From Cladophialophora immunda (lineage: Eukaryota > Ascomycota > Eurotiomycetes > Chaetothyriales > Herpotrichiellaceae), in contig NW_015622542.1 of assembly GCF_000835495.1 (NCBI RefSeq), positions 6,408,485 to 6,472,484 on the forward strand: a stretch of DNA of 64,000 nt. Direction: 5' to 3'. Made by a program: the position numbers and the translations under genes. Positions 9,888 to 35,277 of this stretch are shown here, one piece after another (the stretch's first letter is position 1; each line of letters opens with the position of its first letter). The notes under the pieces were generated by a model. It had not been told where the DNA came from. It saw only the letters and a program-made list of their open reading frames with translations, and searched no databases.

Positions 9888-11573
9888 TCACGCCGAAAGC
9901 CGGGCCGAAATACTCGACCTTGCACTCCGAAGCAGTTGAACTACTGACGACTGCAGCCCTCCCCTGGTCCAGGACACGGAGGCGACTAGACGCCAAACCA
10001 TCCACGACACCAAGACGGCGAGCCCAAGACTCTTGACGGCGGTCCGCGCCCAGCGCCCAAGTCGTTTCAGGATCCAATAACGAGAGCCTCCTCGGAAGAC
10101 GTAGTCGGCGAAGTCGCGCTGCCAGAATTCCCACAGCAAGTCCATGCCGGTCCCGGGGTAGGAGGCGGTGTTGCGCCCGACGCTGTTCAGGTTCCAGTTG
10201 CTGCACCCGCCCGACCAGACCATCTGCTGGAGCTTGTACTGCGTCTTGGTGGCCCAGTAGCCCTCGGCCTCCGCCTTGACCTCGACGCTCGTGGCCTGCC
10301 CGTCCAGGATGGGCCGGAAGATGTGGCGCACGGTGTAGTCGGCCGCGAGCTCCAGGATGAAGATGGCCGAGTTGTGGGCGAGGAACGTGTTGGGCCCGAA
10401 CAGGATGGAGAAGTTGGGGAAGCCCGCCACGGTCATGCCCTTGTACGCGACCGCGCCGCCCGTCTCCTTCCACTTCTCGTTCAATTGCACGCCGTCGCGG
10501 CCGATGACCCGCATCGGCGTCAGGAACTCGGTGACCCGGAACCCCGTGGCGTAGCAGATGGCGTCGAACTCGGTGCGGTCGCCGTCCTCGGTCTCGATGA
10601 CGGAGCCGTCGATCTGTTTGATCTTGGACGCCGTGACGTCCAGGTTGGGGCTAGAGAGCGAGTCGAGGTAGTCCGGGTCGAAGACCCGCCGCTTGCAGCC
10701 CAGCGGGAAGTCCGGGATGATGAACCCGTGGTATTTCTGGGGCGTCTTGCCGAGCGTGTACCGTTTGGAGGCGCCTTCGAGTTTCCGTCTCTCGCGCGCG
10801 GCCTTCTCGCCCGCCCCGTACGCCAGCGTCATAAACTCGAAACTGGCAAACAGTCGGAGCCGGAGATACCTCTGGTAGAGGGGCACGTAGCGGCAGAGCG
10901 CCTTGGACAGGGGGCTGGTGAGATGGTTGGGTCTTTCGTGGTACCACTGCGCGGACCGCGAGTACTGCTTGACAAACGACGCCTTCTGGACGAGTTTGGG
11001 CACAATCTGCGAGGCACTGCAGCCGTTTCCGATGACGGCAAGCCTTTTGCCGGTGTAGTCGTACGAATGGTCCCAGCGGGCCGAGTGCCAGCTTCTGCCC
11101 GTGAACGTTTCCTTGCCCGGAAGGTCGATTTCCTTGGGAGCGCTGATGCCCCCGACCGCCGAGACAAAGATGTTGGCCTTCCGCCTGAACTCGATCCCCG
11201 TCACGACATTCTTCAGGCTGACTTCCCAGAGCTGTTCCTCCTCGTTCCAGACCGCGCCCAAGCACTCGATCTGCAGTTCGAAAAACCCGCGCAACTCGAA
11301 CCGGTCGACCACGTCGTTGAGGTAGGCGAGGATCTCGGGCTGCTCGCACAGCGCCTTGGACCAGTCCGGGTTGAGGGCGAAGGAGAAACTGTAGAGATGG
11401 CTGGGCACGTCGCAGCCACAGCCCGGATAGGTGTTTGCGAACCACGTGCCGCCGATGCCCGACATTTTGTCGTAGATGACAAAGTCGCGGAATCCCATCC
11501 TCGTCAGCTTGTACGCCATTGCAATGCCAGAGGCTCCGGCGCCGATGATGATGGCGTTTGGGTAGTCCCTCAT
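9888..11573 (-). CDS. FAD/NADPH flavin monooxygenase, Baeyer-Villiger type
   Basis: Single exon of 561 aa. The N-terminal FAD Rossmann motif is I-I-I-G-A-G-A-S-G (about residues 8-16). The Baeyer-Villiger fingerprint F-T-G-R-S-W-H-S-A-R-W-D lies near 155, the NADPH Rossmann motif V-I-G-N-G-C-S-A near 180 and the class-B A-T-G-F motif near 345. Such enzymes insert oxygen next to a ketone to give an ester or lactone; N- or S-oxygenation cannot be excluded from sequence. The C-terminal 60 residues contain a hydrophobic helix (L-G-L-A-V-L-V-S-W-M-V-W-R-L-V) flanked by Arg/Lys, suggesting a membrane anchor. The gene is divergent from an SDR across about 530 bp, and it marks the left edge of the catabolic cluster. 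Confidence 0.9.
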   Translation of the reverse strand: MRDYPNAIIIGAGASGIAMAYKLTRMGFRDFVIYDKMSGIGGTWFANTYPGCGCDVPSHLYSFSFALNPDWSKALCEQPEILAYLNDVVDRFELRGFFELQIECLGAVWNEEEQLWEVSLKNVVTGIEFRRKANIFVSAVGGISAPKEIDLPGKETFTGRSWHSARWDHSYDYTGKRLAVIGNGCSASQIVPKLVQKASFVKQYSRSAQWYHERPNHLTSPLSKALCRYVPLYQRYLRLRLFASFEFMTLAYGAGEKAARERRKLEGASKRYTLGKTPQKYHGFIIPDFPLGCKRRVFDPDYLDSLSSPNLDVTASKIKQIDGSVIETEDGDRTEFDAICYATGFRVTEFLTPMRVIGRDGVQLNEKWKETGGAVAYKGMTVAGFPNFSILFGPNTFLAHNSAIFILELAADYTVRHIFRPILDGQATSVEVKAEAEGYWATKTQYKLQQMVWSGGCSNWNLNSVGRNTASYPGTGMDLLWEFWQRDFADYVFRGGSRYWILKRLGRWARTAVKSLGLAVLVSWMVWRLVASVSWTRGGLQSSVVQLLRSARSSISARLSA

Positions 11574-12101
11574 CGTGTCTGGATGTTTGGGACACTGTTC
11601 GGAGCAAATACTTGGGAGGCGATCAGATAGGAAGGCTGATGCTCAGGGATAGCACGCCTTTACTACGCTGTCGTTGCCAACATCTCATTTGCCCTCCATA
11701 CACATGTTATGAGAGCTCGAGTCCCCACAATAAGAAACACCGCGGTTCCGGATTGGGCTAGACCCTGTGTAACTCTGGGTCCACTCCTGTCTACCTAGTG
11801 CCTACCTACCTGCCTCGGTCAAATTCAACGTCCCAATCTCTATGCCGCATGTCCCTGATAGTGCTCGGCTCTAATTTATCGAGGTATGGCAATATGCAGG
11901 TCTCCCACCCAGCAGTCCAGGACGCCGTCAGCACCAACGAGGTCGAACGAAGAACTGCTGCGCCGAGGCAACGAAGGTCTGGTATAAGTAGACTATGCAA
12001 GATTTGGCATTGTGCTCCCCCGACACCACGCGTCCATTGAAATCCGGAAGATTATAGTTTTTGCGAAAGCTACTGTGGAACGAACGTTCCCAGTCACAAA
12101 T
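11574..12101. promoter_or_regulatory. Divergent promoter, monooxygenase / SDR
   Basis: A 528-bp spacer between two start codons pointing away from each other. It contains CTCGG/CCGAG-type triplets (for example G-T-G-C-T-C-G-G near 11862) as elsewhere in the cluster. No gene is visible inside. Co-regulation of the pair is inferred from geometry. Confidence 0.5.
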
Positions 12102-12941
12102 ATGGCACCTACTCCGCCACCAAGCAGTGCTCAAGGGAAGCCTAGCTGGATCCTCACACCCGATCACAGCACGACCGTCTCGCGAATTCAGTCCGTCGCG
12201 GGCAAAGTCGCCGTGGTCACGGGCGGCGGTCGCGGAATCGCTGCACAGATCGCTTGTGGTCTCGCAGAGGCCGGCGCCCTGGTCGCTGTCCTCGATATTC
12301 TTCCTGCCCCGGTCATAGAAGACTTCGATCCTATCCTTCAGGCATGTCCACAAGCCAAATTCTACCGCGCCGACGTGACATCCTCCGAGTCACTTGCACA
12401 AGCCTTCCGTTCTGTGCTGCAAGACTTTGGGAAGATCGACATCTGCGTCGCCGGGGCAGGCGTTCTCGGCGAAACCCAGCTGATCGACGTCCCGGAGTCG
12501 GAACTCCTCCGTCAAGTCAACATCAACCAGCTGGGTGTCTTCTTCACGGTCCAACAGGCGGCACGGCAGATGGTGGCTCAAGGCCACGGGGGAGCGATTC
12601 TTGTTATTGCATCCATTGCCGCCCACGGATCGTTGAGGGGCCAGCTGTCGTCCGTCTACGTGATGACCAAATGGGCGATAAGAGGGCTTGTGCGGCATGC
12701 TGCACTCGAGCTGGGACAACACCAAATCCGGATCAACTCTCTCTCCCCCGGATACGTCCAAACTGGGCTTTCCATCCCCTTTATCACCGAAGAGAGGTTG
12801 AAAGTCTGGAACTCCACCGTGGCCTTGGGCCGCATGGAAAGACCCGACGAGCTCAAGGCGCCTGCGGTGTTTTTGTGCAGCGACGCGGCGAGCTACATAA
12901 CGGGCACAGATTTGCTGGCTGACGGTGGTGCTTTGTGCTAA
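12102..12941 (+). CDS. Short-chain dehydrogenase/reductase
   Basis: Single exon of 279 aa from the ATG at 12102; an upstream in-frame ATG at 12012 would add 30 residues lacking SDR features. The NAD(P)-binding motif V-V-T-G-G-G-R-G-I-A sits near residue 34. The usual N-A-G motif is replaced by V-A-G-A-G near 118. The catalytic Y-x-x-x-K (V-Y-V-M-T-K) is near 185 and the C-terminus has the classical Y-I-T-G-T-D-L-L-A-D-G-G. A classical SDR of this type interconverts a secondary alcohol and a ketone. Next to a Baeyer-Villiger-type enzyme, it is well placed to make the ketone substrate. That role is inferred from context. Confidence 0.88.
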   Translation: MAPTPPPSSAQGKPSWILTPDHSTTVSRIQSVAGKVAVVTGGGRGIAAQIACGLAEAGALVAVLDILPAPVIEDFDPILQACPQAKFYRADVTSSESLAQAFRSVLQDFGKIDICVAGAGVLGETQLIDVPESELLRQVNINQLGVFFTVQQAARQMVAQGHGGAILVIASIAAHGSLRGQLSSVYVMTKWAIRGLVRHAALELGQHQIRINSLSPGYVQTGLSIPFITEERLKVWNSTVALGRMERPDELKAPAVFLCSDAASYITGTDLLADGGALC

Positions 12942-13093: not shown

Positions 13094-14187
13094 TCAGAAC
13101 ATGGCAATGGCGTTGGACGGTGACCCAATCCCACTAGCTATGTTCAGGGGGGCGCTGGCGAGGTAAAATGACCACCGTTCTCGACTGCGGCACACCTCTG
13201 ACAATTTCTCCAGATCCCAGAGCTTTCCAACGGGCATCCCCCACATGGCCAGGAAATGCTCGTGGAGCACAATGTCCCCCGGCGGCCAGGCCTCGTATGT
13301 GATGTTGTCCGCCACAACGGCAGAGAAGTGATGATTCCAATGCCTTGGCCGTTCATCAGCTCGAGATAGCGTCAGTAGCTGGGACGGCTGGGGGAGGCTC
13401 ACCATCTGCATGAGGCCATCGAGGCTTCAAGCCCCAAATACTCGCCGTTCTCTACTATCCCTTGCCTATTCTCGTCATCGGTCGCCGAGTTACTCCACGC
13501 AATGAAACCTGTGCGAACAAAAAGAATGTCCCCCGGTTTTAAGACCGTCTTTTGCCATTTCACGACCTGCTCGAGCTGGGAGATTGTGATCTCCCCTCGC
13601 CTGGCGGGATGGTACTCATGGCCATTCTCGGTCGCCCAAGCAGCCCAATCCAGCAGGACGCCCCTGCCACAGATGCCGCCTCGAGCACTCCACAACCTGG
13701 TTCCCGGATGAAGACCATTGTCCGCGTGGAATTCCGCGTGGTCGAGGTCGTTGTAGTATTTCCTGCTCCTGATAAGGGTCAATGGAAGACCGTATCTGCG
13801 CGTCCCCCATCTCTCCTGGCCTTACCTCTGATGTGCATAGTGTAATGGCGTATCCCAGTGGGATCCATGCTGCGGACAGAAGGCGATTTCCTCATCGTTG
13901 GCGTAGAATCCCTTGGAACTCAGATCTACAATCCGATGTTGTACCGTCCTTCGCGCGAAACCACTGTAGCGTGGCTTCTCCATGTCCCAGTTCAGGGACA
14001 CCGTCTGGCCACATAGGATCTCCCCTCTGGCCGCGTCCAGAACTCTTTGCTGTGTTAGCAGGTTCAGCGTACCAAGCTGGTCGGTCTGCCCATTGCGATC
14101 AAACAAGGTCCAGGCACATCCTCTGAGGCTACCATCTGGAGAAGATGGGAGCGCGTCGAAATCTGGCAACGCTACAGAATCCCCCAT
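13094..14187 (-). CDS. Cyclase-family metal-dependent hydrolase (kynurenine-formamidase-like), copy 1
   Basis: Three exons read on the minus strand: 14187-13826, 13768-13403 and 13343-13094 (introns of 57 and 59 bp), about 325 aa. The start is the first real ATG, M-G-D-S-V-A-L-P. Conserved pieces are D-Q-L-G-T-L-N-L-L-T near residue 40, the metal-site motif H-G-S-H-W-D-T-P-L-H near 110, G-R-G-V-L-L-D-W near 160, L-K-P-G-D-I-L-F-V-R-T-G-F near 205 and a C-terminal G-S-P-S-N-A-I-A-M-F. The family (Pfam Cyclase, PF04199) includes kynurenine formamidase and isatin hydrolase, which open C-N or lactam bonds with a divalent metal. In this setting it may hydrolyse a lactone or cyclic dione. A second copy lies at 30012-31378 with a different metal site. 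Confidence 0.88.
13344..13402 (-). other. Predicted intron 2 of cyclase copy 1
   Basis: Donor GTGAGC, acceptor CCAAG (AAG rather than CAG/TAG). Splicing gives C-R-W-H-W-N-H-H-F-S-A-V, matching the same region of copy 2 (N-Y-F-S-A-V). Confidence 0.75.
13769..13825 (-). other. Predicted intron 1 of cyclase copy 1
   Basis: Donor GTAAGG, acceptor ATCAG, phase 2. It links H-Y-A-H-Q-R to S-R-K-Y-Y-N-D. An acceptor six bases further on would also keep frame. Confidence 0.7.
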
Positions 14188-14708
14188 TTCCTTTGTGTCA
14201 AGCACCTTTTGCGGATGGAAATGCGGCGGCTTTTCTGTTCTTGAGTGGTAAAACTTCTGTGTCCGCTCTTTGAGAGGACATTTTTAGGGAGGACAAGGAG
14301 CGGCCACACCTGAGAGTCGTACCCAAGGCTTCTAGCCCCCGGTTCCATGCAGAAGAGACTCGGCCTCTTGGTACACAGGCAGCGTTTCCCTGGTGTCCGG
14401 ACCCACCGTCCCTAGTCATGGTGTGCCGAGGCCTTGATACGCCTCGTTTCTGGCCGAGAAACTTGGGAAGAGGCCCCTTTTCCTTGAGTCGGTGAGGCAT
14501 CCCTCCACCCTCAGACCACCTAGGTTGGCATTCTGAGTGAACGCGTTCTCCAGTCTGTCGGGGCCTACAGGGACCCAACACCCCAAGGGGATCTCTCCCT
14601 ACCACCTGGGGATACTTGAATCCTGGAGCACCCCAGCGAGGGCCAGTTACATCGCCCTGCTCCACCCATTGCATTTTACGAGCATTCGGGACATATTCCA
14701 CCGTACCC
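14188..14708. promoter_or_regulatory. Divergent promoter, cyclase copy 1 / MFS transporter
   Basis: A 521-bp spacer between divergent start codons. It contains G-A-C-T-C-G-G at about 14348-14358 and C-C-G-A-G-G near 14424, related to elements in other cluster promoters. No supported gene inside. Confidence 0.45.
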
Positions 14709-16235
14709 ATGGGCAGGTTTCAACGCGGATTCTTACCCGTCAAGGGTCTGGCCCTGCAAGGCGGCGTGACCATCTGTTCCGCCATGACGTTTCTGCTGTT
14801 TGGTTACGATCAAGGGGTATTCGGCGGTCTCATCGCCATCCCATCGGTGCTGGAAGACTTGAAAATCGCGCCGACGGACGCCAATCTCCAGGGGACCGTC
14901 ATTGCTCTCTTTGACATCGGTTGCTTGGTCGGGTGCCTAATCTGTGCATTCGCGGGCGAGACCCTAGGTCGACGCACATTCATCTTCATCGGCGGCCTCT
15001 TGATCATCCTGGGAGCCGGATTGCAAGCTGGCTCCCCGGATTGGCACATGATGATCGGGGGAAGAGTGGTGGCCGGCGTGGGCGTGGGCATGGAGACGTC
15101 CTTCATCCCGATCTGGGTGTCGGAATGCGCTCGAGCCGCTCACCGCGGCGCGCTGGTGGCGGTCCAGATGTCTCTCGTCCTCATGGGCCTGGTGGTCTCG
15201 TACTGGTTCGACTATGGCACCGTCCGCAACCTGACGGGAGGGGTGGTGTGGCGCCTCCCGCTGGCGTTCCAGGCCGTCTTTGTCTGCATCACCCTGGCCA
15301 CCATCTGGACCCTGCCCGAGTCCCCGCGTTGGCTCTACAAAAAGGGGCATATCGCCGACGCCGACGACGTCATTGCGCGCATCTACAACGTCCCCGTGGA
15401 CGACGTCTACGTCGAGAAGCATCGCGAGGAGGTCCTCCAGGCCTTGGAGGCGGAGAAGGAGGTGGTCTTCCGGCTCCAGGACATCTTCTGTGACCAGTCC
15501 AAGGTCAACACGTCCTGGCGGATCTGGGTCTGCGTCATCATCCAGTTCCTGCAGCAGCTCGGCGGCATCAACTTCATCGCCTACTACGCCGCCTACCTCT
15601 TCATCAACAACCTGGGCATGAGCCAGCACCAGGCCACCTTGACGGCAGGGGGGCTCAGCCTCGTCTTCTGGGGCGGCTCCCTGACCGCCATCTACACCGT
15701 GGAGCGATTCGGCCGCCGGCCCGTGCTCCTCTGGGGCGCGGTCGCCTGCTCCGTCTGCATGATCTGCTACACCGTCGGCCTCGCCGTCTTCAGCCAGGCT
15801 AGCCTGACCATGGCCGTCGTCTTCATCTTCCTGTTCGACTTCTCGTTCGGCGCGTCCTGGTGCATCGTTCCCTGGATGTACTCCCCGGAGGTCACGCCGC
15901 TGCATGTGCGGCACGTCGGCACGTCGCTTGCGGTCGGCACCGAGTGGCTGATGACCTTTGTGGTGGTCAAGGTCGGGCCGATCGGGATCCAGCACGTCGG
16001 GTGGCGGTTCTACCTCCTCTTCTGCGTCTTCAACGTCGTCCAGGTCGTCTTCGTCTACTTCGCGGTCCGCGAGACCAAGGGCCTCACCCTGGAAGAGATC
16101 GACTGCGTGTGGGCCAAGCCCGAGTACAAGGCCGAGTTGGAGGCGAGGCTGCACAGCGTCGAGCACGAGGCCCGAATCGGGGAAAAGGGCGAGTCCTCGC
16201 TCCACGTGGAGGCACACCCGGTCCCCCAGGCGTGA
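14709..16235 (+). CDS. MFS transporter, sugar-porter family, copy 1
   Basis: Single exon of 508 aa starting M-G-R-F-Q-R-G; an in-frame ATG 93 bases upstream adds residues unlike the family. Twelve hydrophobic segments are visible. Sugar-porter signatures are F-G-Y-D-Q-G-V-F-G-G near residue 33, G-E-T-L-G-R-R near 82, P-E-S-P-R-W-L near 210, Q-Q-L-G-G-I-N near 280, E-R-F-G-R-R-P near 335 and E-T-K-G-L-T-L-E-E-I near 458. Fungal members carry hexoses, quinate, lactose or other small polar molecules with protons. Sequence alone does not fix the substrate. Within this cluster it probably imports the pathway's growth substrate or a glycoside. Codons are strongly GC-biased at third positions. Confidence 0.92.
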   Translation: MGRFQRGFLPVKGLALQGGVTICSAMTFLLFGYDQGVFGGLIAIPSVLEDLKIAPTDANLQGTVIALFDIGCLVGCLICAFAGETLGRRTFIFIGGLLIILGAGLQAGSPDWHMMIGGRVVAGVGVGMETSFIPIWVSECARAAHRGALVAVQMSLVLMGLVVSYWFDYGTVRNLTGGVVWRLPLAFQAVFVCITLATIWTLPESPRWLYKKGHIADADDVIARIYNVPVDDVYVEKHREEVLQALEAEKEVVFRLQDIFCDQSKVNTSWRIWVCVIIQFLQQLGGINFIAYYAAYLFINNLGMSQHQATLTAGGLSLVFWGGSLTAIYTVERFGRRPVLLWGAVACSVCMICYTVGLAVFSQASLTMAVVFIFLFDFSFGASWCIVPWMYSPEVTPLHVRHVGTSLAVGTEWLMTFVVVKVGPIGIQHVGWRFYLLFCVFNVVQVVFVYFAVRETKGLTLEEIDCVWAKPEYKAELEARLHSVEHEARIGEKGESSLHVEAHPVPQA

Positions 16236-16589: not shown

Positions 16590-18534
16590 TCAGAGTCTCG
16601 GACGTGGCGACTCTAGATCTACCGTCGTCATGTCCGTCTCCCTGACGACATCCTCCGCACCTGCCGGCGCTCGTTCCTCACGCAGTGCCCGCTTCAGGAT
16701 CTTCCCGGTCGGGCTTTTGGGGATACTCGGCACGAAGCGGATCTCTGCAAGCCACTTGTGGCGAGCCCTCTTCTGCTGCACCAGCCGCAGCAGTTCCACG
16801 CCGGTCGCCTTCTTGTCCGCTTCGGACGGGCCCAAACTGCGGAGGGCGACGAACGCGACCGGTCTTTCCCCGGCGAAAGGGTCCGGGGTGCCCAGGACGG
16901 CACAGCTCTCGACGTTCGGGTGCGTGAGGAGGAGATCTTCCAGCTCCGCCGGGGCCACGCCGATGCCTTTGACCTTGATGAGGTCCTTGATGCGGTCGCT
17001 GACGACGAGAAATCCATCCCGGTTCATGCGGCCCACGTCGCCCGTGTGCAGCCAGTTGTCTGTGTCGAACGTGGACGCCGTCGCCCGGGGATCGTCGAGA
17101 TAGCCCGCGGTAATCTGAGGACCCCGGGCGAGGATCTCGCCGGTTTCGTCCACGCCCAGCTCCCGCCCGTCATCGACGGACCGGATCATGATTTCGGTGT
17201 TTGCCACCAGGGTTCCCGCGAACCCGGCATTCTCGTAGCCGAGCTTGCCCGGAGGGTGGAGGGTGATTGCGCTGCACGATTCGGTGAGGCCGTAGCCTTG
17301 CTTGAAGCCTGTCTGAGGGAATCGCCGGTGCAGGACCTCTAGGATGCCGTCTGACAGTGGCGCGGCGCCCGAAAAGAATCTCCGGACGCAGCTCAAGTCA
17401 TATTTTATGACGACCGGGCTCTTCGCCAGTAAGACGATGATCGGGGGCACCAGGCAGAGTTCTCGGATTTCGTACTTGGACACCACGCCCAACATCACAT
17501 CCAGGGAGAACTTGCGCATGAGATAGACTTCGGCGTTTAGGACGATCGGTACGTGGAGAATGTGGACGAGGCCCTGGACTAGACAGCGGACGTCGTCAGC
17601 GCACGTATCTTTAGGTGGCATCTTGGATCCTTACTGTGGAAGACTGGGAGCGCCCCTAGAACCCGACGGTGGTCGGCAGGGGTGATTTGGGCCACCTGCA
17701 GGCATTGAGCAATGACATTGTGATGTGAGATGATTACCTGGACGGGTCAGTGTGACGGCCTGGTCATGAGCTGGGACTTGAAGGGCACTCACTGCCTTGG
17801 GAAGGCCCGTCGTGCCACTGCTGAAGTTCAAAAAGGCGCAGATGTCTCTGTTCGTCTGGCCGGCCGGTATCGAGAAGGCGACCACTTGGCCCTCTTTCCC
17901 ACGACTCTTTCCCAGTTTTGCCAGCCCTCTCAGTGATCTTCTTGTCGCCATCTCATCACGCTGGTCCTCGAGGAGCAATATTTTGCAGTCCCTGGTCCCC
18001 GATTCCCGGACCGCAGCCACGGCGACGCTCTCAAGTTCAGGGATCGTCCACAGAACTTTGGCACTGATCTTTTGCAGGGCGTAAGAGAGCTCGTCCTTCC
18101 CATAGCTAGGTGACACCCCTGAAACTCTGGCTCCTACAACCCTCGGCCTGGTTAGCCTTGTATCAAGATATCACAGCGCGGTGGAACCAACCTAGCCGTA
18201 AGGCGCCGAAGATGGCGACGGGGTACCATATCGAATTGGGACTGAAAATTGCGACCGAATCCCCTGCACGAATACCATACTCTGTGGTCAATGCAGTCGA
18301 CAAGTGTGTCGCATACCCTTTAAGCTGTAAATACGTGACCCGGTTCTGCGTGTCCACATCTGTATAGCCTGATGTCGTGCGTGTCGTCAGTCGGTCGATA
18401 GAATGCTCGAGCAGCCAGTCCCAGATGGTCGTGTCCGTAGGAACTGTCTGATAGTCAGTGACATTTCTTTTTCGCTCAGTGGTAAATACTTGATACTTGC
18501 CGTTAATACGGGGGTGGGAAGAGTGGAAGACCAT
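16590..18534 (-). CDS. Acyl-CoA synthetase, 4-coumarate-CoA ligase-like
   Basis: Four exons on the minus strand: 18534-18192, 18118-17793, 17737-17635 and 17578-16590, about 586 aa. The start M-V-F-H-S-S-H-P is typical of fungal 4CL-like enzymes. ANL-superfamily motifs are the P-loop N-F-S-S-G-T-T-G-L-P-K near residue 215, P-V-F-H-I-Q-G-L-V-H near 255, Y-G-L-T-E-S near 350, L-H-T-G-D-V-G near 445, D-R-I-K-D-L-I-K-V-K-G near 465 and the catalytic-lysine motif P-T-G-K-I-L-K-R near 555. The reaction is ATP-dependent adenylation of a carboxylic acid, then transfer to CoA. The C-terminus ends R-P-R-L, a weak peroxisomal PTS1-like tripeptide (P-R-L). It is divergent from the AtuA homologue and probably activates an acid produced by the ALDH or the hydrolases. 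Confidence 0.9.
17579..17634 (-). other. Predicted intron 3 of the acyl-CoA synthetase
   Basis: GTAAGG...CTAG, phase 1. Splicing restores P-V-F-H-I-Q-G-L-V-H-I-L-H. Confidence 0.85.
17738..17792 (-). other. Predicted intron 2 of the acyl-CoA synthetase
   Basis: GTGAGT...CCAG, phase 0, directly after the P-loop. It joins G-L-P-K-A to V-I-I-S-H-H-N. Confidence 0.85.
18119..18191 (-). other. Predicted intron 1 of the acyl-CoA synthetase
   Basis: GTTGGT...TTTCAG, phase 1. It joins A-L-R-L-G to V-S-P-S-Y-G. The donor is weaker than usual, so the exact site is less certain. Confidence 0.6.
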
Positions 18535-24646: not shown

Positions 24647-25597
24647 TGCAGAGCTTCTGGAAATGTGATAGGAATGGCAAGTCCAGAAAAGCGACAGAAG
24701 CAAAACGGGCGACAGAGGCGAGGCTGGGACGCTTCTGGTTTTGGGGGGCCCAGAGAGGGATTCAGGATTGGCTGCGATACCGGGAACGGTAATAGACGTA
24801 TCATACGGTGTGGCGCGGGGTACTTTCGACTGGAGCTAGGCCCTCCGGGGACAGGTGGGAGCGGGGAGGGACCCGGTCACGGCTGGGCTCATTAGGTAGA
24901 GCCTCGTGACCAGGATGCTCTGTGCAATCGAGCAGAGATACGAGTATACGAGATAGATGGTACTAAGGTGCTTCCAAACATCTCGGGCATATGCAACGAG
25001 ACTCGTCTCCGCCGTTGACCTGTTTCTCCTCGCCTTTGCCAGATCAAGACATTACCTACGCTCCCTTGATGCAACGGCGAACGCCGATCTGGTCCATGAG
25101 CACACTGTCTAGCTACATAGAGATGTGAACCAGGAAAGGGCCCACCTGCTAATGCACAGCACAAGACCCCTGAGAAGGTCTGTCCACCTGTCAAGTGTGG
25201 AAGTGGTTCAGGGTCGCTAACGCATAGTGTCTTTATCGCGCTTCACCACGACACGTTCGACGGAGGGGAAATGAAGCCAAGCTAATGCGTCGCGTATCTC
25301 GGTTCCCTCGGCACCCACGTTTTCACTGGCACCAGACCGCCGAGGGATCCAAATCATGGTGTATTGAAATCGACCGAGGTGGCGAGGTGGTATGGACCCT
25401 GGTCATTCTCGCACCACATTCCAAGGTCTGGCCGCCCCCTGGGGTACCTCCACGGGGAGGATCTCGAGACCGGACCAACAAATGCCATTGCTGGACGGAG
25501 ATGCGGTATAAGTATTCATGGACGAACGAGGGTTGTAAGCACTCTCGGCCGCTTCCCCAGTATCCAACGGTCTTTTTGTGCCACTTCCGCAGCCGCC
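24647..25597. promoter_or_regulatory. Divergent promoter, regulator / MFS copy 2
   Basis: About 950 bp. It is pyrimidine-rich near the regulator start. C-T-C-G-G elements occur as a close pair at about 25293-25311, with another C-C-G-A-G-G near 25340. A C-x-C-P-R-C-L-E peptide frame on the minus strand near 24980-25000 resembles half of a zinc cluster but could not be joined to an intact exon. Confidence 0.45.
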
Positions 25598-27783: not shown

Positions 27784-29598
27784 TCACAGCACGACTTGAG
27801 ACGTCAAATCCTCGGGGAATCTGGCTGCGTCGACGCCGTTGGGTCTGGTGCCAATATGATACCCAGGCCTCACTTTGCCGGCGTCGAACTTGATCACGGG
27901 CGCCATGGCCCGGATCTTCTTGCCCGGACCAAGTGCCACCTCGGCCTCGCGATCCTCGAAGAACTCGTCTTTGAACAATCTCCCGGCGGCCGGACCTGCC
28001 CTGAGGCTGCGGAGCATTCGGGGAAAGGTGTGCCCCATGGTGTGCCAGTGCCGGAAGGGCTCGTGTCCGGTCTCGTCGCGCAGACGCCGAAAGACGGGAT
28101 CTGGATACGTCCCTACGGAACGTACGAGCCACTGGTTGTAGTAGTTGAGTGCCACGTCCACGCCGTAGCTACCACCTTGCTTCCCCCGCCGCAGGAGCGC
28201 GATCAAAGTGCCACATATCCCCGCGAGACCAGTGCAGTAATCGCTATTGGGGAAGATGGGCGTCACCGGCTCGTCGAGCCCCAGCGCCTGACCATAGCTG
28301 TGGGCGCAGCCAGTCACCGCGTCACTGATTTGTTGCCAACCACTGCGATCCTGCCACGGGCCGTACCAGCCGTAGCAATTCTCTCGCACGTAGATGATGC
28401 CTCGCTCTCTGCCAGCACACAATTTCAGCACATCCTCTCGGCCAAAGCCAAACTTGTCGAAGGCTCCCGGCCGGTAGCCATTGATGACCACATCGGCATC
28501 CAGAATAAGTTCCCGGAATTGGGCCCGATCGCTCTCGGTTCGTAGATCGAGGTAGCAGTTCCATTTACCCCAGTTCGTGTCTGGGTGCAGGATACCATAT
28601 TCTGGGAGATGAGGGCCCATAACACGCATCACCGACGCCCCCAACTCTGCTAAACCTCGCCCGATGGAGGGCCCGGCGAGTATCCGAGTCAAGTCCACCA
28701 CCTTCAGTCCTGCAAGCGGGCGCAGTGGCGAAGTCTGAGGGGCATTCGGCCACCAGCACGGCGGTTGTTTGCTACCAGACTCTAAAAAGTCGTGGATCTC
28801 GAAAAGGTCAACGTGCTCGTTGGCTTTCCCGTGTTCGCTCGCCCAGTATTCCTCTGATGTAAGAGACACCTGTCCTGATTGATGATATATGTCGCTGACT
28901 CGACGTTGGAGCTCGGCCGAGGTGATCCTTGATGCGGCGGTCTGGTAATTCCGGACTGCTTCCTCATATGTCGAGACATCCAGGTCGAGCGGAAGGCCGA
29001 GAGCCTTGAGAGTCGAGTCGGGATTCAAATCTCCATGGCTCTGGAAAAACTTTCCATCCGAACATCGAAGCCAGTTGGAAGCGACTGCACGATGCAAGGA
29101 TGCGTATAGTCTGTGCTTGTCACAAGGTGGGAAGTACTTTTCTATGCCAGCGTTGCCGGGGCTCAAATTGCCGTTCACCGAGACGTTCTCCCCCTGAGGA
29201 TCGAGGGTCCACACGAGACAGGACATGATGAACAAAGTCGCATGGTCGGTGTCGATGGTCACCGCTTGGATTGGGAGGTTGTACTTCCGATGCACCAAGA
29301 CGTTGATCAGCATTGCCTCCAACATTTTCAGCGCCGACACCGACTCGGCCTGCCGCCAATTGATCGGTACGCTAGGAACATCTGAACCCTTGAGAGTCAC
29401 TGGAAATGCGGCGTTGAAGCACTCCTCGGGGAGGAATCTCCTTATTCGGGGGTTGTTGAGGATTTCCGTTTCAAATACCTTGAGTGTCTCCTCCTGGACG
29501 TTGTAGCGGCCGTCAGCCTTGCCGTCGCAGGTGCCGTTGCCAACGACATGCCCATTGCCATTCTTTCTGGACTCGTCGGAGACGTCGGAAGTAGACAT
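27784..29598 (-). CDS. Class III CoA-transferase (CaiB/BaiF, formyl-CoA-transferase/racemase superfamily)
   Basis: Single exon of 604 aa starting M-S-T-S-D-V-S-D; the frame stays open 24 codons upstream but without an ATG. The second half shows the family core: L-A-G-L-K-V-V-D-L-T-R-I-L-A-G-P near residue 300, D-L-R-T near 350, D-V-V-I-N-G-Y-R-P-G-A near 370 and F-P-N-S-D-Y-C-T-G-L-A-G near 455. The Asp in the last motif is at the position of the catalytic Asp of formyl-CoA transferase. The first half is a degenerate related domain, as in other roughly 600-aa fungal members. Such enzymes move CoA between carboxylates or epimerise 2-methylacyl-CoA. Racemisation would suit a branched terpenoid-derived acyl-CoA. 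Divergent from cyclase copy 2. Confidence 0.87.
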   Translation of the reverse strand: MSTSDVSDESRKNGNGHVVGNGTCDGKADGRYNVQEETLKVFETEILNNPRIRRFLPEECFNAAFPVTLKGSDVPSVPINWRQAESVSALKMLEAMLINVLVHRKYNLPIQAVTIDTDHATLFIMSCLVWTLDPQGENVSVNGNLSPGNAGIEKYFPPCDKHRLYASLHRAVASNWLRCSDGKFFQSHGDLNPDSTLKALGLPLDLDVSTYEEAVRNYQTAASRITSAELQRRVSDIYHQSGQVSLTSEEYWASEHGKANEHVDLFEIHDFLESGSKQPPCWWPNAPQTSPLRPLAGLKVVDLTRILAGPSIGRGLAELGASVMRVMGPHLPEYGILHPDTNWGKWNCYLDLRTESDRAQFRELILDADVVINGYRPGAFDKFGFGREDVLKLCAGRERGIIYVRENCYGWYGPWQDRSGWQQISDAVTGCAHSYGQALGLDEPVTPIFPNSDYCTGLAGICGTLIALLRRGKQGGSYGVDVALNYYNQWLVRSVGTYPDPVFRRLRDETGHEPFRHWHTMGHTFPRMLRSLRAGPAAGRLFKDEFFEDREAEVALGPGKKIRAMAPVIKFDAGKVRPGYHIGTRPNGVDAARFPEDLTSQVVL

Positions 29599-30011
29599 GA
29601 TCGCAACGTCGTGTGATAAATGTTTGGGGTTGATAGACGTCGTGTAGAATCTGCCAATGCTGGAAAGCAAGACCCTGCCAGGAACTGTTGAAACTCTCGG
29701 CGGCCGCTATACTTCGTACTTCGTATTCGAGTTGTCGGTGGATCTTCAGCATGCATCTTGGCGTTGATCGACCATGCCCTCCGCCTTCTGAATGCTCCGA
29801 GGCTCTAGCACAGCGAACCGCGGCTTTTCACACCACCGCGGTCGTGGCTGGCGTACTAGGAAGCTTGTGACAGCCTCGGCGAGTTCTAATGACTATAGAA
29901 GATAGACAGACTCCACGGACTCCAGACTCTTCATTGCACCTTGTATTTGTGACCATTAAGCGTTGCCCAGCCCCTAGAGCTTATTTCCACCACCTTGTCG
30001 CTGGGCACATC
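29599..30011. promoter_or_regulatory. Divergent promoter, CoA-transferase / cyclase copy 2
   Basis: A 413-bp spacer between divergent ATGs. Positions 29795-29807 hold the 13-mer CTCCGAGGCTCTA, also found exactly in the ADH/ALDH divergent promoter. C-G-G-C-G-G-C-C-G lies near 29699. These could be regulator sites. Confidence 0.5.
29795..29807 (+). promoter_or_regulatory. Shared 13-bp promoter motif, copy A
   Basis: CTCCGAGGCTCTA, identical to 33541-33553 in another divergent promoter of the same cluster. Candidate transcription-factor site; unproven. Confidence 0.4.
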
Positions 30012-31378
30012 ATGCGGTTTGACGCTTCCTCCAAGGCGTTGCCTAAACGGTCGGAGCTTCCTTCCATCGAGGGAGCTCCAGACGGGGCTGCGTGGTTCTG
30101 GGGAGACAATGATGAGGTACCCAATCTCTAAGCTTCCTGTCAAGCCAGAAATCTTATCATGGTCAGCTCGGGCGCCTCAATCTCCTGACACCAGAGCGCG
30201 TCGCGTCGGCCACCAAGTTGATCCGCGACGGCAAGATAGTCAGTCTTAAGTGAGTGGCGAAACATCATCTCGCAAACGACGAAACCTAACCACCACGTCC
30301 AAGTTGGCGTGCAGACTATCCCAACCCGCCAGCCTTTGGCAGACAGGGTTTCCAACACACTATTGCCCCGATAGGAGAATCCGGATATGACGACTTGTAC
30401 AACATGAACACACAGAGTGGATCACAGGTTCGCAGTCCTTGAAAATGGCGTTGTCCGTATCCTAGAATGACCGATTCGCGTACAGTGGGATGGGTTTCGG
30501 CATGTAAGACTGCAACTTTCGTTCTCAAAAGGAGTAAACTCTTATTCCCCTGAAAGGTCGGCCTCAAGCACAAAGACAGCGTTGTTTTCTACAACGGAGT
30601 ACGTATCATCTATCCCGTCGTTACACAAATGTGTGCTAAAAGGAAACGTGTAGCTTACCAGGGAGGATGTCACAAACACAAAGGCGCATTCTGGCGGGAT
30701 GCAGGCGTGGTCCGAGCATGGAATAGGTAAAGTCCACCCCCTCTCGATCGAGCGACGGGATGAGAGCTCTTATGAAATGTCTCGATAAAGGGGGCCGCGG
30801 CGTTCTCATCGACTACTGGGACTTTGTGGGAAAGAACTATGACCCGACGACAACACATCGGATCGCCCTGAGCGACATTCGCGCCTGTGCAAGGAAGCAG
30901 GGGGTCGAGTTTCAATACGGAGACGTGCTCATCATCCGTTCCGGCTTTGTCGAAACCTACAACAACCTGGACGACAAGGCGCGGGCGCACCTGGGCACGC
31001 TGAAAATCCCGGAGCATACCTTCGTCGGCGTCGAGCAGACCGAAGAGATGCTCGACTTCCTCCACGACAACTACTTCAGCGCCGTAGCGGGGGATGCCCC
31101 GGCGTTTGAGGCCTGGCCCCGGCAATCCATCAACCTCCACCAGTACCTAATACCCCGTTGGGGCGTGCCGATCGGCGAAATGTGGGACCTGGAGCAGTTG
31201 GCCGAGACGTGTAAACGCAAGAACCAATATGCCTTCTTCTTCGCGAGCGCCCCCGCGAATGTGCCCGGTGAGTGGACGTCGACAGCGAGACTTCGCAATC
31301 CGGGAACGTGATCTGCTGACGAAGGGAAACCGTACAGGCGGTGTGGGGAGTCATCCCAACGCCATCGCCATCTTCTAA
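30012..31378 (+). CDS. Cyclase-family metal-dependent hydrolase (kynurenine-formamidase-like), copy 2
   Basis: Eight exons: 30012-30116, 30167-30249, 30304-30427, 30486-30503, 30557-30598, 30666-30726, 30791-31267 and 31338-31378, about 316 aa. Exon 4 is only 18 nt (W-D-G-F-R-H). Landmarks are D-N-D-E-L-G-R-L-N-L-L-T near residue 32, S-L-N-W-R-A-D-Y-P near 61, G-S-Q-W-D-G-F-R-H near 103, H-G-I-G-G-R-G-V-L-I-D-Y-W near 143, Y-G-D-V-L-I-I-R-S-G-F near 185 and a C-terminal G-S-H-P-N-A-I-A-I-F. The metal-site segment has Q instead of the H seen in copy 1 and lacks its T-P-L, so substrate or metal use may differ. It probably opens a lactone or related ring in the pathway. Eight exons versus three in copy 1 argue for old divergence. 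Confidence 0.85.
30486..30503 (+). other. 18-nt micro-exon of cyclase copy 2
   Basis: Flanked by ACAG and GTAAGA. It encodes W-D-G-F-R-H, which completes the conserved S-Q-W-D-G-x-R-H motif. Without it the metal-site Asp and His would be lost. Confidence 0.75.
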
Positions 31379-32213
31379 AGTGGCCTAGAAATTTTCAGCT
31401 AAATGTGTGAGACAAGGGCACGAGCTGGTCCTTTGAGATGCGTGTAAAGGTCAACAGTGCTGTGCTTGACCTAGCCCGAGGCTGAGTAACTAATCGTTAG
31501 GAGCCATGATCGAAAGTAAATGAAATTGACGTTGTCGTGTCATCTATTATAAGATCCCACTTGGTGAGGCTGGAGCTTGATACGTCCATAAGTCTGACTT
31601 TGCGAAGACGGGGCACTACGAACAAAATTCCTCTGTCGTTCAACAAACAGCCCTTGAGCAAGATCGTGAAATGGTCAAGATGTCGCTTTCGCAGGAAGAT
31701 GTCTTTCGCTCGGGACCGTGATAGTGCAATAGGGTCTAGCGGCCGGTCTGTAGTATTATTACGGCAAGACCTATACCGAGTATGTAGCCAGCAGTAGTCG
31801 AGGAAGCTAAGTCAGCCGAAGAGCTAGCTCGATCCATATGATAAGATATAGGGCCTAGCTTACTCAAGGAGATAGATCAGGCTGGACACGAGGCTTGGTT
31901 ATGTAATATTCGTAAATCTATTAGTTATCTAGTGATCTATTTCACAGATACTTGGTAGCATAGATGATGACGAATTCCCTTTCTATATGGATGGTTGACT
32001 TGATCGAGCGACATCGAGATGTCTTATTCAGCCCGTGAAGAGACAGCCTCAACAGCACGGCTGGCCTACACCGTCGCCGACGTTAACTGCGGCGTCGGAA
32101 GCCTGGGGATGAGACACAAGGTGGAACTGTAGCCTTCCATCAACTTGTTCATGGAATGGCTAGTGGGGACATCAAGCCTTCCTGGAAGAGGTGAAGAAGA
32201 GCAGCCCGTTTCT
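31379..32213. other. Convergent intergenic region, cyclase copy 2 / ADH
   Basis: About 835 bp, AT-richer than neighbours in its second half (31750-32000), with a palindrome G-A-G-C-T-A-G-C-T-C near 31825. No gene or transposon domain recognised. Confidence 0.45.
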
Positions 32214-33266
32214 CTATGACCACAGATCAACTACGGCTCTACCCACGATGCTTCCGTCCTTCAACAGCCGGATTGCATGCGGCAACTGCTCGAGAGGGAA
32301 TCTCCTGGTGACGGGAGTGACGAGGCCTTGCGCACAGAGATCCAACACCTCCGCCGTGTCCCCCAGCGTGCCGACCATGGCGGCCTTGATGGTGACATTC
32401 TTGGCGATCAGGTCATTCGGGTCGCCGCCGATGTTTGCCGTGCCGGTGGGGGGCATGGCGACGCAGACCACGGTGCCTCCGAGGCGCAGAAACCCCGGGG
32501 CAGACGCGTAGCTGGACGGATGGGCCGACGCCACGATCACCGCGTGGGCGCCCGTGCCGGTGAGCGCCATCGTGGTCCGGACCGGGTCGGCGCCCGACGC
32601 GATATCGACGAACTCGACAGCTCCCAGCGACAGGCAGAGGTCGCGTTTGGCGGGCCCGCCGTCGACGGCGATCACCCGCGCGCCCATCGCCTTCGCGATC
32701 TGGATGGCGAAATGGCCCAGCCCGCCCCCGGCACCCAGGATCACGGCCCACTCTCCGGCGCGGAGGCCGCTCTTTTGCAGCGCGGCGTAGGACGTCGTGC
32801 CCGAGCACATGAGCGGCGCGGCGTCAAACAGGTCCACGGCGGCGGGGATCCGGGTCGCGTAGATGGCGGGGACCGCAATGTATTGCTGATACGTGCCCTC
32901 CATTGTGATCCCCGTGAACCGGGCCTGCGGGCAATACTGCTCGCGGCCCTTGATGCAGCTCTCGCAGGTGTGGCACACCCAGGAAATCGGCTTGACCCCA
33001 GCTCGGTCTCCAACCTGCCATCCGGTGGTGTCGCTGCCGACGGCTTCGACGATTCCGGCGCCTTCGTGGCCCACCGTCTGCATCTGCGTCTGGAAGGCGG
33101 TCCATTCTCTCGACATCAAGGAGAGGTCCGAGTGGCATAACCCGGTCGCGTGGAGGCGGACGAGGATCTCCCCTTTGCCGGGCTGAGGTTTGGGCTTGTC
33201 AACGATGTCGATTGTGAAGTCCTTGCCCGGGTTTCGGACGACCGCTGCACGCATCGTAGACGCCAT
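32214..33266 (-). CDS. Zinc-dependent alcohol dehydrogenase (MDR family)
   Basis: Single exon of 350 aa starting M-A-S-T-M-R-A-A-V-V. Catalytic zinc ligands sit in G-L-C-H-S-D near residue 47 and G-H-E-G-A-G near 70. The four structural-zinc cysteines lie in C-H-T-C-E-S-C and G-R-E-Q-Y-C (about 99-113). The NAD-binding motif is G-A-G-G-G-L-G near 182, followed by the acidic A-V-D-G-G, which favours NAD over NADP. The architecture is that of yeast-ADH-like enzymes oxidising primary or secondary alcohols. It shares a divergent promoter with an aldehyde dehydrogenase, a standard alcohol-to-aldehyde-to-acid pair. Here it could oxidise the hydroxy acid formed after lactone opening. Confidence 0.92.
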   Translation of the reverse strand: MASTMRAAVVRNPGKDFTIDIVDKPKPQPGKGEILVRLHATGLCHSDLSLMSREWTAFQTQMQTVGHEGAGIVEAVGSDTTGWQVGDRAGVKPISWVCHTCESCIKGREQYCPQARFTGITMEGTYQQYIAVPAIYATRIPAAVDLFDAAPLMCSGTTSYAALQKSGLRAGEWAVILGAGGGLGHFAIQIAKAMGARVIAVDGGPAKRDLCLSLGAVEFVDIASGADPVRTTMALTGTGAHAVIVASAHPSSYASAPGFLRLGGTVVCVAMPPTGTANIGGDPNDLIAKNVTIKAAMVGTLGDTAEVLDLCAQGLVTPVTRRFPLEQLPHAIRLLKDGSIVGRAVVDLWS

Positions 33267-33813
33267 GATAGTGCTTGGTGTCGTTGTATCAGAGGGGAGG
33301 AAACCAGGTGTCTGCGCGACGAAGGACACCAGATAATTCTACAGCAGTCCACGTCGAAGCAGTAGTGCTCTAGTTTCCATCCGGGGTTTGAAGTATTCTA
33401 AACTAGCACAACTTGCAAATACATGTTGCGGCCATCCCAGCATTCGCTGAATCCCTCCCTCGATGCTAGCTCGCGTCCATGATGGAGGAGTGGGGTCGCC
33501 AATTGGTCCAATACTACTGCAACCGCGGCTCCAGCGATCACTCCGAGGCTCTACGAGGTACAGATCTATGGGTCCAGTACGCAGCTCCTAACCCCGACTG
33601 CTGGTTTCGAGATTAAACCTAGGCACCCAGTAAAGCCCAAACGACGTATGGATGCTCCCTGACACATCCGGACAGATGGCGAACACAAGACCTGGAGTCC
33701 TTTATCTAAATGCCAACGTGACGAAACCGCCGAAATGATCGGAAGCCAGCAACCGCCATCAGGGCAGGATCTTCCATTCAGGAATCCACATTCCAGGATC
33801 TGAGACCGTCAAC
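33267..33813. promoter_or_regulatory. Divergent promoter, ADH / ALDH
   Basis: A 547-bp spacer between divergent start codons. It contains the shared 13-mer at 33541-33553. No gene inside. Confidence 0.5.
33541..33553 (+). promoter_or_regulatory. Shared 13-bp promoter motif, copy B
   Basis: CTCCGAGGCTCTA, exact match to 29795-29807 and in the same orientation. Located near the middle of the ADH/ALDH divergent promoter. Confidence 0.4.
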
Positions 33814-35277
33814 ATGGCGAACGGTGTCCTCGACGGCCCTAATATCGAAACGCGGTGCTTCATCAACAACGAATTCGTGGAGGCCAAAGAGACCTTTGCC
33901 CTCTACAACCCGTCGACCGGCAAGCTCACAGCGAATGTTTGTCAGGGAGGGGCCGATCTGGTCGACGCAGCCGTGGATGCGGCCGAAGCTGCGTTTCCGT
34001 CTTGGGCGGCGCTGGATGCGGCGGCGCGAGCGAAATGTCTGATCCGGCTGGCAGACCTCTTGGTCGAGCACGCGCCGCAACTGGCCCAGCTGGAGGCTGT
34101 CAGCATGGGCAAAGTGGCGGCTTTCTATCCCCCGGAGGTCCAGTGGACTGCCGATATCTTGAAATACTTTGCCGGCCTGGCGAGGGAGGTGCACGGGGAG
34201 ACGAGTCTGACGACCGCGGGGCTGATCAACATGACCTTTGTCCAGCCGTACGGTGTCTGCGGCGCCATCATCCCCTGGAACGGGCCCTTGGTCGCCATGT
34301 CGTTGAAGGTCGGGCCTGCCCTGGCGGCCGGGAACACTCTCGTCCTCAAGCCCTCGGAGAAGTCCCCCTTGACGGCGCTGTACATGGGCAAACTCATCAT
34401 CCAAGCCGGGTTTCCACCCGGGGTACTGAACATCCTGCCCGGCCACGGTCGCGTCACTGGAGCCGCCATCGCCAGCCACATGCGGATTAGAAAGCTGGCC
34501 TTCACCGGCAGCACGCGGACGGGGCGGATCATCAAGAAGCTCGCGGCCGAGTCGAATCTCAAGGACGTCACCTTGGAGCTGGGCGGCAAATCCCCTCTGA
34601 TCGTGTTTCCCGACGCGGATCTGGACGAGACTGTGGCCGCGGCGGCATTCTCCATTGCCCAAAACTCGGGCCAGATCTGCATGGCGAGCTCGCGCGTCTA
34701 CGTGCACGAGTCGATCGCCGATGACTTCGTGCACGCCTATGTCGCCGAGTTCAAGAAGATCATGGGCCAGGCAGGAGATGCTTTGGACGCAAAAACCACG
34801 CATGCACCGCAGGCGGACGCCCAACAGTTCGAAACGATCATGAACTACTTCGAGACCGCCAAACGCGAGGGCGCGACCCCCATCACCGGCGGTCGACGGA
34901 TCGGCGAACAAGGCTATTTCGTCGAGCCGACGGTGTACCTCAATCCAGGCCACTCGGCCACGATCAACCGCGAAGAAATCTTCGGCCCGGTCGCCGTGGT
35001 GAACACCTTCGCCTCGGAAGAGGAGGTGCTGAAACTGGCCAACGACACCGAATACGGCCTGTATGCGTCAGTCTTCACCAAGGACCTCTCCCGAGCGTTG
35101 CGGTTTGCCAGGCGGCTCGAGTCGGGAATGGTCGGGGTTAATTGCACGTCGCCGACGATGGCGTTTGATCTGTCGTTCGGGGGTACCAAGCAGAGTGGAG
35201 AGGGCCGGGAATCGTCTTTGAAGTCGCTGCTCGCGTGGACCGAAATCAAGACCGTTATGATCAAGGCCTCAGCCTGA
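33814..35277 (+). CDS. NAD(P)-dependent aldehyde dehydrogenase
   Basis: Single exon of 487 aa from the ATG of M-A-N-G-V-L-D-G-P. ALDH-superfamily motifs are P-W-N-G-P-L near residue 152, the Rossmann-associated F-T-G-S-T-R-T-G near 230, the general-base motif L-E-L-G-G-K-S-P near 253 and the nucleophile region N-S-G-Q-I-C-M-A-S-S-R near 286. E-I-F-G-P-V near 390 and a C-terminal G-G-x-K-Q-S-G-E-G-R-E complete the family pattern. The enzyme turns an aldehyde into a carboxylic acid. It is the right-hand end of the alternating catabolic cluster and is paired with the ADH. Its acid product could feed the acyl-CoA synthetase or CoA-transferase. Confidence 0.95.
   Translation: MANGVLDGPNIETRCFINNEFVEAKETFALYNPSTGKLTANVCQGGADLVDAAVDAAEAAFPSWAALDAAARAKCLIRLADLLVEHAPQLAQLEAVSMGKVAAFYPPEVQWTADILKYFAGLAREVHGETSLTTAGLINMTFVQPYGVCGAIIPWNGPLVAMSLKVGPALAAGNTLVLKPSEKSPLTALYMGKLIIQAGFPPGVLNILPGHGRVTGAAIASHMRIRKLAFTGSTRTGRIIKKLAAESNLKDVTLELGGKSPLIVFPDADLDETVAAAAFSIAQNSGQICMASSRVYVHESIADDFVHAYVAEFKKIMGQAGDALDAKTTHAPQADAQQFETIMNYFETAKREGATPITGGRRIGEQGYFVEPTVYLNPGHSATINREEIFGPVAVVNTFASEEEVLKLANDTEYGLYASVFTKDLSRALRFARRLESGMVGVNCTSPTMAFDLSFGGTKQSGEGRESSLKSLLAWTEIKTVMIKASA

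Follow-up and report, generated by a model that had tools for sequence, protein, structure and literature searches.

The bacterial chnABCDE route for cyclohexanol and cyclohexanone proceeds from alcohol to ketone, lactone, hydroxy acid and diacid, with the alpha/beta-hydrolase ChnC as lactonase. Here we analyse a twelve-gene cluster of the black yeast Cladophialophora immunda (Chaetothyriales), located at positions 9888-35277 of a 64-kb stretch (contig C2:6408485-6472484, in a genome of 42.2 Mb and 39 contigs), hereafter called the window. In order, the genes encode a Baeyer-Villiger monooxygenase (BVMO)-like flavin monooxygenase (FMO, - strand), a short-chain dehydrogenase/reductase (SDR, +), a cyclase-family protein (CYC1, -), an MFS transporter (MFS1, +), an acyl-CoA synthetase (ACS, -), AtuA (+), a regulator (-), a second MFS transporter (MFS2, +), a CoA-transferase family III-like protein (CoAT, -), a second cyclase-family protein (CYC2, +), an alcohol dehydrogenase (ADH, -) and an aldehyde dehydrogenase (ALDH, +). 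We find it somewhat probable that this set is a co-inherited catabolic cluster for one alicyclic or branched ring compound, joined from two modules that also exist apart at other places of the genome. Hydrocarbon-polluted habitats have been linked with some of the Chaetothyriales black yeasts. C. immunda itself is reported to mineralise toluene, and an over-representation of its cyclase and acyclic-terpene-utilization families is also reported (PMC5595782); the accessible text of that article gives no pathway for these two families. No printed description of the window cluster was found in the open-licence literature.

Pairing of the cluster families elsewhere in the genome

For the cyclase family PF04199, the genome list contains 31 rows at 31 loci; 40 rows of PF07287 (AtuA) were merged by hand to 24 loci and 33 rows of PF02515 (CoAT) to 23, and 66 rows of FMO relatives gave 62 loci after three second exons and one small contig were dropped. 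These lists are lower bounds (best 78 of 308 candidates scored for FMO, best 90 of 470 for P450), and the FMO list misses two genes that adjoin a cyclase, one at C5:72 kb (L007) and one at C1:7559 kb (L033). With the window excluded, one locus set was rotated against the other 2000 times and neighbours within 10 kb were counted. Cyclases had an FMO neighbour in 7 of 29 cases against 0.87 and 0.83 expected, a count that none of the 2000 rotations reached in either run. Three of the seven belong to one array (C7:1475-1491 kb), hence five places. AtuA and cyclase were paired at 4 of 23 loci (0.32 and 0.31 expected; 1 and 0 of 2000 rotations), two of these AtuA loci being weak matches (48 and 32 bits). 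Pairing of AtuA with CoAT was seen at 2 of 23 loci against 0.24 expected (65 and 52 of 2000), and that of the control pair, cyclase and P450, at 0 of 29 against 1.19 (88 P450 loci retained from 94 rows). In these lists, cyclases and FMOs crowd most closely at C7:1475120-1511396, where three cyclases and three FMO/BVMO-like matches lie in about 36 kb.

The same genome also contains partial paralogous clusters. At C5:3852-3868 kb, an FMO (29% identity, BVMO fingerprint present), an ACS, a CoAT (49%) and an AtuA follow each other on one strand, with no cyclase within the 16 kb examined. The C2:5449-5463 kb cluster is composed of an FMO (48%), two ADH-family genes (one of them Pfam-confirmed), a Fungal_trans regulator and a cyclase, and no AtuA or CoAT was found within the 14 kb examined. 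A third one, at C1:7553-7573 kb, was examined after a promoter motif site (see below) turned up there, the place being already in the pairing lists. It harbors an AtuA (38%), an SDR, an alpha/beta hydrolase, a cyclase (46% to CYC1 over the C-terminal part), a BVMO with fingerprint, another SDR and a CoA-transferase, together with transporter-like and P450-like models judged by eye. The window cluster is the fullest of this kind found in this genome. Judged by content and not by a tree, it looks like a fusion of a cyclase-type and a CoA-type module.

Relatives were further sought in other assemblies. Exophiala viscosa, described as non-pathogenic and amenable to genetics (PMC12507995), carries FMO (P0123, 85%) and AtuA (P0241, 88%) on contigs of equal size (2,240,945 bp), and another AtuA (P0245, 80%) and CoAT (P0003, 70%) lie on contigs of 22,725 bp each. 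Because these sizes are identical, FMO-AtuA and AtuA-CoAT linkage is implied, in the sense of the same contig and not of distance or order. The spread of FMO, CoAT and AtuA relatives is patchy, few of the listed matches exceeding 60% identity. The original prediction had proposed a comparison of synteny across related genomes; in the small part covered here the two linkages are implied, and a close CoAT is lacking among the listed E. viscosa matches. Taken together, two enriched family pairs, the partial paralogous clusters and the implied linkage elsewhere indicate that physical linkage is recurrent beyond chance.

The window could instead contain at least two smaller neighbouring clusters that act on different substrates and share no pathway, namely a BVMO-cyclase-SDR-ADH-ALDH unit and an ACS-CoAT-AtuA unit. 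That both modules exist apart in the C2 and C5 clusters speaks for this explanation, as does the apparent FMO-AtuA linkage in E. viscosa, in which no close CoAT orthologue is present among 120 listed of 1298 matches (best 49%, on another contig). However, genes of the two modules interleave in one alternating run with a single regulator, the C1:7553 kb cluster also brings AtuA, cyclase, BVMO and CoAT together within 20 kb, and AtuA-cyclase pairing is enriched genome-wide. We therefore regard independent neighbouring clusters as rather unlikely and retain a single cluster joined from two modules as the preferred explanation.

Gene layout of the cluster

First gene models came from ab initio prediction, for which 87 kb of long open frames served as the training set, and spliced genes were then completed by hand. 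In these splice-aware models all twelve genes (12/12) are complete with a single terminal stop, and they form six back-to-back pairs with a strand switch at 11/11 junctions. Gaps between gene models are 413-1651 bp for divergent and 34-770 bp for convergent neighbours. The boundaries and the uninterrupted alternation announced in the original prediction are therefore borne out, and Pfam confirms each of the twelve gene families that it listed.

The control for strand order consisted of 20 pieces of 10 kb each from this genome, 18 of them spaced and 2 flanking the window; two of the 20 had no gene above the score limit. Opposite strands were observed in 14/29 adjacent predicted pairs, which gives P ~3e-4 for the 11/11 run. 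At this rate a set of 13,000 genes should contain 2-3 such runs; gene counts given for C. immunda are 12,879 or 15,228 depending on the strain (PMC5595782, accessible text). Alternation was thus set aside as weak evidence for a cluster, and the layout is not itself the finding. It is real, yet unremarkable genome-wide; the gene content is far from chance.

Two anchors connect the models to annotated genes of C. immunda. CoAT is CLAIMM_11316 isoform 2 (100% identity over 82% of its length) and AtuA is CLAIMM_11313 isoform 1 (100% over 68%), both on a 163,268-bp contig. Since the two lie three gene steps apart in our models as well, the twelve genes are probably CLAIMM_11308-11319. The prefix CLAIMM_113 has no match in the accessible main text of PMC5595782.

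The next gene upstream keeps to the alternation; it encodes a glycoside hydrolase family 3 protein (7017-9247, + strand; PA14 and Fn3-like domains by Pfam), whose N-terminal exons before 7017 fall outside the model. Other flanking genes at 4634-5440 (+), 1062-2339 (+) and 41183-41707 (-), with HRI1, Omp85-superfamily and kynureninase C-terminal domain matches, appear unrelated. Neither an Rfam match nor a tRNA was found in the window.

Enzymes of a proposed upper route

The FMO (9888-11573, - strand) is a single-exon protein of 561 aa with Pfam Pyr_redox_3 and FMO-like domains. Type I BVMOs are characterized by the fingerprint FxGxxxHxxxW(P/D), which is present as FTGRSWHSARWD at residue 157, together with two Rossmann motifs (GAGASG at 11 and GNGCSA at 182). 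In the PDB it is most similar to cyclohexanone monooxygenases (E 5.7e-54). The protein thus carries the sequence hallmarks of a type I BVMO, and ketone oxygenation is predicted.

BVMO, SDR, MFS and Fungal_trans genes are common in secondary-metabolite clusters, so that the BVMO and the cyclases might be tailoring enzymes of a biosynthetic cluster. The FMO does match the model of the pentalenolactone BVMO PtlE, with 135 bits, far under the cut-off of 1100 bits. No polyketide synthase, peptide synthetase, terpene cyclase or prenyltransferase domain occurs in the twelve genes and the eight flanking reading frames scanned, and AtuA, ALDH and the CoA enzymes point to breakdown. A biosynthetic role is therefore very improbable.

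The SDR (12102-12941, +; 279 aa; PF13561, 4e-52) shows TGGGRGI and YxxxK motifs. CYC1 (13094-14187, -; 323 aa, 3 exons; Pfam 7.9e-12) and CYC2 (30012-31378, +; 320 aa, 8 exons; Pfam 1.1e-9; PDB 5ibz 7.6e-32) both exceed the curated PF04199 cut-off, with 46.0 and 39.1 bits against 23.1. Metal hydrolases of this family canonically carry HxGTHxDxPxH. In CYC1 the corresponding motif reads Q-H-G-S-H-W-D-x3-H, a Gln replacing the first canonical His, and in the spliced model of CYC2 it is QSGSQWDGFRH (Q-S-G-S-Q-W-D-x3-H). A motif scan of 11 other loci gave 9 matches, of which 8 have Gln at both sites and one (L001) His at both; no match was obtained at L004 or L006.

The zinc-dependent ADH (MDR type; 32149-33266, -; 350 aa, 2 exons; PF08240/PF00107) contains the CHSD, GHE and structural four-Cys motifs, and among solved chains it is closest to other ADHs (best 5yat, E 1.5e-72). 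The ALDH (33814-35277, +; 487 aa; PF00171, 2.5e-159) reached the cut-off of none of the 25 NCBIfam models listed.

Enzymes of a proposed lower route and transporters

The ACS (16590-18534, -; 572 aa, 5 exons; PF00501, 3.8e-70) resembles 4-coumarate-CoA ligase (4CL; PDB, E 3.2e-79). Its first intron (18444-18500, -) is of the GC-AG type, the GC donor being needed for the usual 4CL-like N-terminus.

CoAT (27784-29598, -; 604 aa; the CLAIMM_11316 product) belongs to class III CoA-transferases as judged by the Pfam model and by the fold predicted for its C-terminal half. Catalysis in this class uses the Asp of the RAGYD motif, as in SUGCT, as nucleophile, and PDB titles naming D169/D175 mutants fit such a role. 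This Asp aligns to Gln422 in CoAT, and the CoAT of the C5 paralogous cluster has a Gln there too. Fungal family III proteins of about 590 aa have an N-terminal half of about 290 residues of little tested fold along with the invariant Gln at the nucleophile site, and several of the fungal CoAT relatives are labelled 'alpha-methylacyl-CoA racemase' or 'L-carnitine dehydratase' in databases.

AtuA (20186-22015, +; 609 aa; the CLAIMM_11313 product) contains PF07287 (482 bits against a cut-off of 22.8) and PF23544 (43.7 against 27). By predicted fold its closest solved relative is the citramalate lyase CmlA/CmlB, with conserved residues common to both; no paper on that structure was found in the open-licence literature. 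The PDB titles of the relative mention ADP and pyruvate, from which we infer that AtuA may be an ATP-linked C-C lyase. Its modelled citramalate-lyase-like fold suggests branched hydroxy acids as substrates, without proving terpenoids.

MFS1 (14709-16235, +; 508 aa; PF00083, 1.1e-99) and MFS2 (25598-27467, +; 507 aa, 6 exons; PF00083, 1.7e-78) are sugar-type transporters.

Regulator and divergent promoters

The regulator (22050-24646, -; 739 aa, 7 exons) has a Fungal_trans domain (PF04082, 6.8e-13) as its only Pfam match. No six-cysteine Zn2Cys6 pattern was found in the 739-aa model, and between 24500 and 25598 all three minus-strand frames are likewise without the half pattern C-x2-C-x5-9-C.

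The six divergent promoters were examined by counting words, by looking for the spaced CGG pairs typical of Zn2Cys6 sites and by a motif search with one site per promoter. Spaced CGG pairs were not significant (best of 125 patterns, p 0.013 in 300 shuffles). Three exact 7-mers occur in 5/6 promoters against 0.22 in shuffles (maximum 2 of 60), and the best 11-mer was equalled in 2/20 shuffles. The best 13-mer, TAGAGNCTCGGAG, with one instance in 6/6 promoters, was equalled in 0/20 first-order and 1/160 second-order shuffles. Its candidate sites are at 11830 for FMO/SDR (11574-12101; TAGAGATTGGGAC, furthest from consensus), 14353 for CYC1/MFS1 (14188-14708), 19948 for ACS/AtuA (18535-20185), 24897 for regulator/MFS2 (24647-25597), 29795 for CoAT/CYC2 (29599-30011; TAGAGCCTCGGAG) and 33541 for ADH/ALDH (33267-33813; again TAGAGCCTCGGAG). 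Exact CCGAGGCTCTA occurs 20 times in the genome and the reversed pattern 35 times; 2 of the 20 sites are inside the cluster. A different one of the 20, C1:7560530, has the top motif score over the 26 pieces scanned and lies about 0.6 kb upstream of the presumed cyclase start of the C1 paralogous cluster; the C5 and C2 clusters have no motif site above 14.5 bits. Another CCGAGGCTCTA site, C3:5634259, is about 2 kb from an FMO gene of 48% identity. The presence of the 13-mer in all six promoters is suggestive of a shared motif, and six divergent promoters would invite co-regulation of the cluster.

A proposed catabolic route from two modules

A route can be proposed for a single cluster joined from two modules. 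The SDR and/or the zinc ADH would oxidize a ring alcohol to a ketone, into which the BVMO would insert oxygen to give a lactone or ester, to be opened by one or both PF04199 proteins. The freed alcohol could then be converted to an acid by ADH and ALDH, following the logic of bacterial chnABCDE. The 4CL-like synthetase would form the CoA ester, the CoA-transferase-like protein may bind or redistribute acyl-CoA, and AtuA would split the branched hydroxy-acid skeleton, probably with ATP spent. The two sugar-type carriers may import the substrate, and the Fungal_trans-only regulator, acting with the six shared promoters, would co-regulate the set. The proposal builds on the gene content, the intact state of the genes, the recurring family pairs, the linkage implied elsewhere and the predicted folds of AtuA and of the CoAT C-terminal half; the reactions and their order, the substrate, the joining of modules and co-regulation are presumptive.

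Several results weigh against this reading. At 10 kb, enrichment was not observed for AtuA-FMO (2/23 against 0.68, 328/2000), cyclase-CoAT (0/29 against 0.33) or CoAT-FMO (2/22 against 0.67, 272/2000), and the C2 paralogous cluster has an FMO whose sequence departs from the BVMO fingerprint pattern. The cyclase-family assignment of CYC1 and CYC2 holds above cut-off, yet neither of these predicted hydrolases has canonical HxGTHxDxPxH, and lactone hydrolysis by them is unproven because canonical metal His ligands are missing. Similarly, CoAT has the class III domain and predicted fold without the nucleophilic aspartate: Gln occupies the site in 65/65 aligned sequences, so CoA transfer may not be its reaction. 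An acyl-CoA carboxylase and an enoyl-CoA hydratase are both absent from the twelve genes by Pfam. The 13-mer does not stand out against real noncoding DNA (16/200 sets equal it), and the lack of a close E. viscosa CoAT among the listed matches, given above, is to be counted here too. The alcohol-to-acyl-CoA order first proposed thus fits the families and the chn logic, with three weaker links in the cyclase motif, the CoAT nucleophile and the zinc cluster of the regulator. Likewise, the recurrent pairs, partial paralogous clusters and implied linkage support a co-selected catabolic cluster well; the terpenoid part of the claim rests mainly on the AtuA name.

Along the same line, black yeasts may have built ring-degradation chemistry from three name-annotated families that work differently: Gln-type PF04199 proteins, a Gln-type CoAT relative and a fused AtuA lyase. 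The PF04199 proteins would pair with BVMOs and, lacking a canonical His-metal site, would open lactones or catalyse some other rearrangement; CoAT would be a two-part class III relative and AtuA an ATP-dependent C-C lyase on branched hydroxy acids, and such chemistry would have spread as many mosaic clusters. We put this forward tentatively and consider it unlikely. Whatever the chemistry, the window cluster and its relatives give the cyclase and AtuA families a shared context, cyclase with BVMO, cyclase with AtuA and AtuA with CoA enzymes. Fungal AtuA, named for terpene use, is connected with a citramalate lyase of solved structure. The residues that the names CoA-transferase III and cyclase imply are, L001 apart, missing from the fungal relatives analysed.

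Comparison with known systems

The locus represents a further form of fungal catabolic cluster, in which the expected catalytic residues are missing from the sequences of two annotated families. We take the Fusarium verticillioides range FVEG_12625-12642 to be FDB2. This range is induced and, in the accessible text, includes a CoA-transferase family III gene, an AMP-binding enzyme, a salicylate hydroxylase and a Fungal_trans factor; induction is also noted for a 'putative cyclase' of another range (PMC10512309). These features would fit a cluster that, like the FDB clusters of Fusarium, detoxifies lactones, lactams or quinone-like xenobiotics of plant or microbial origin by opening the ring, while hardly any carbon or none is gained. 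However, a metallo-beta-lactamase, amidase or N-acetyltransferase domain is absent from the twelve genes by Pfam, and the ADH/ALDH/CoA end suggests full catabolism, making detoxification quite improbable. More generally, the FDB-type clusters (PMC10512309) and the Aspergillus terreus 3-hydroxyanthranilate region (BVMO, aryl-CoA ligase and SDR; PMC7842363) are, in their accessible texts, fungal catabolic or detoxification systems with similar mixes of flavin monooxygenase, CoA ligase, SDR, CoA-transferase III and Fungal_trans regulators, but with different core enzymes; 'AtuA' has no match in the accessible text of PMC10512309. The toluene genes and clusters given for C. immunda CBS 110551, the same species or near kin, in the accessible text of PMC5595782 are at loci other than the window cluster.

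Bacterial atu operons share an AtuA with both PF07287 and PF23544. Among the best 80 by similarity of at least 585 confirmed bacterial AtuA loci, relatives of the window ACS were found near AtuA in 20, SDR and CoAT in 9 each, ADH in 4, ALDH in 3, and BVMO and cyclase in only 1 each. Crude gene calling (longest open frames) gave 109 neighbour reading frames from 37 of these loci, including 17 enoyl-CoA hydratases, 10 biotin carboxylases, 8 carboxyltransferases, 5 acyl-CoA dehydrogenases, 3 AMP-binding proteins and 2 CoA_transf_3 proteins. In contrast to the twelve genes, a biotin-dependent acyl-CoA carboxylase and an enoyl-CoA hydratase thus often adjoin bacterial AtuA, and the BVMO-cyclase-AtuA grouping appears rare in bacteria, in this 80-locus sample without a null rate. 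A terpenoid substrate was not accepted from AtuA alone, bacterial AtuA neighbourhoods holding CoA-pathway enzymes at frequencies likewise without a null rate. The single cyclase match is at L045 (Actinomadura roseirufa), which also has acyl-CoA dehydrogenase, amidase, thiolase and CoA-transferase matches. The single FMO/BVMO match (3.6e-66) is at L059 (Rhodococcus sp. Leaf278), where the other genes resemble an atu-type operon, encoding a carboxylase, hydratases, AMP-binding enzymes and an SDR.

Compared with the citramalate lyase CmlA/CmlB (PDB 9erq, 9evf), the window AtuA has 15% identity and is one fused chain instead of two. As for the chnABCDE system, the window cluster likewise assembles an SDR, a type I BVMO, a zinc ADH and an ALDH, and the same route can be written. 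It differs in that the twelve genes include no ChnC-like alpha/beta-hydrolase lactonase, whose place the PF04199 proteins could take, and in that a CoA synthetase, a CoA-transferase-like protein, AtuA, two sugar-type carriers and a fungal regulator are added, in a eukaryote.

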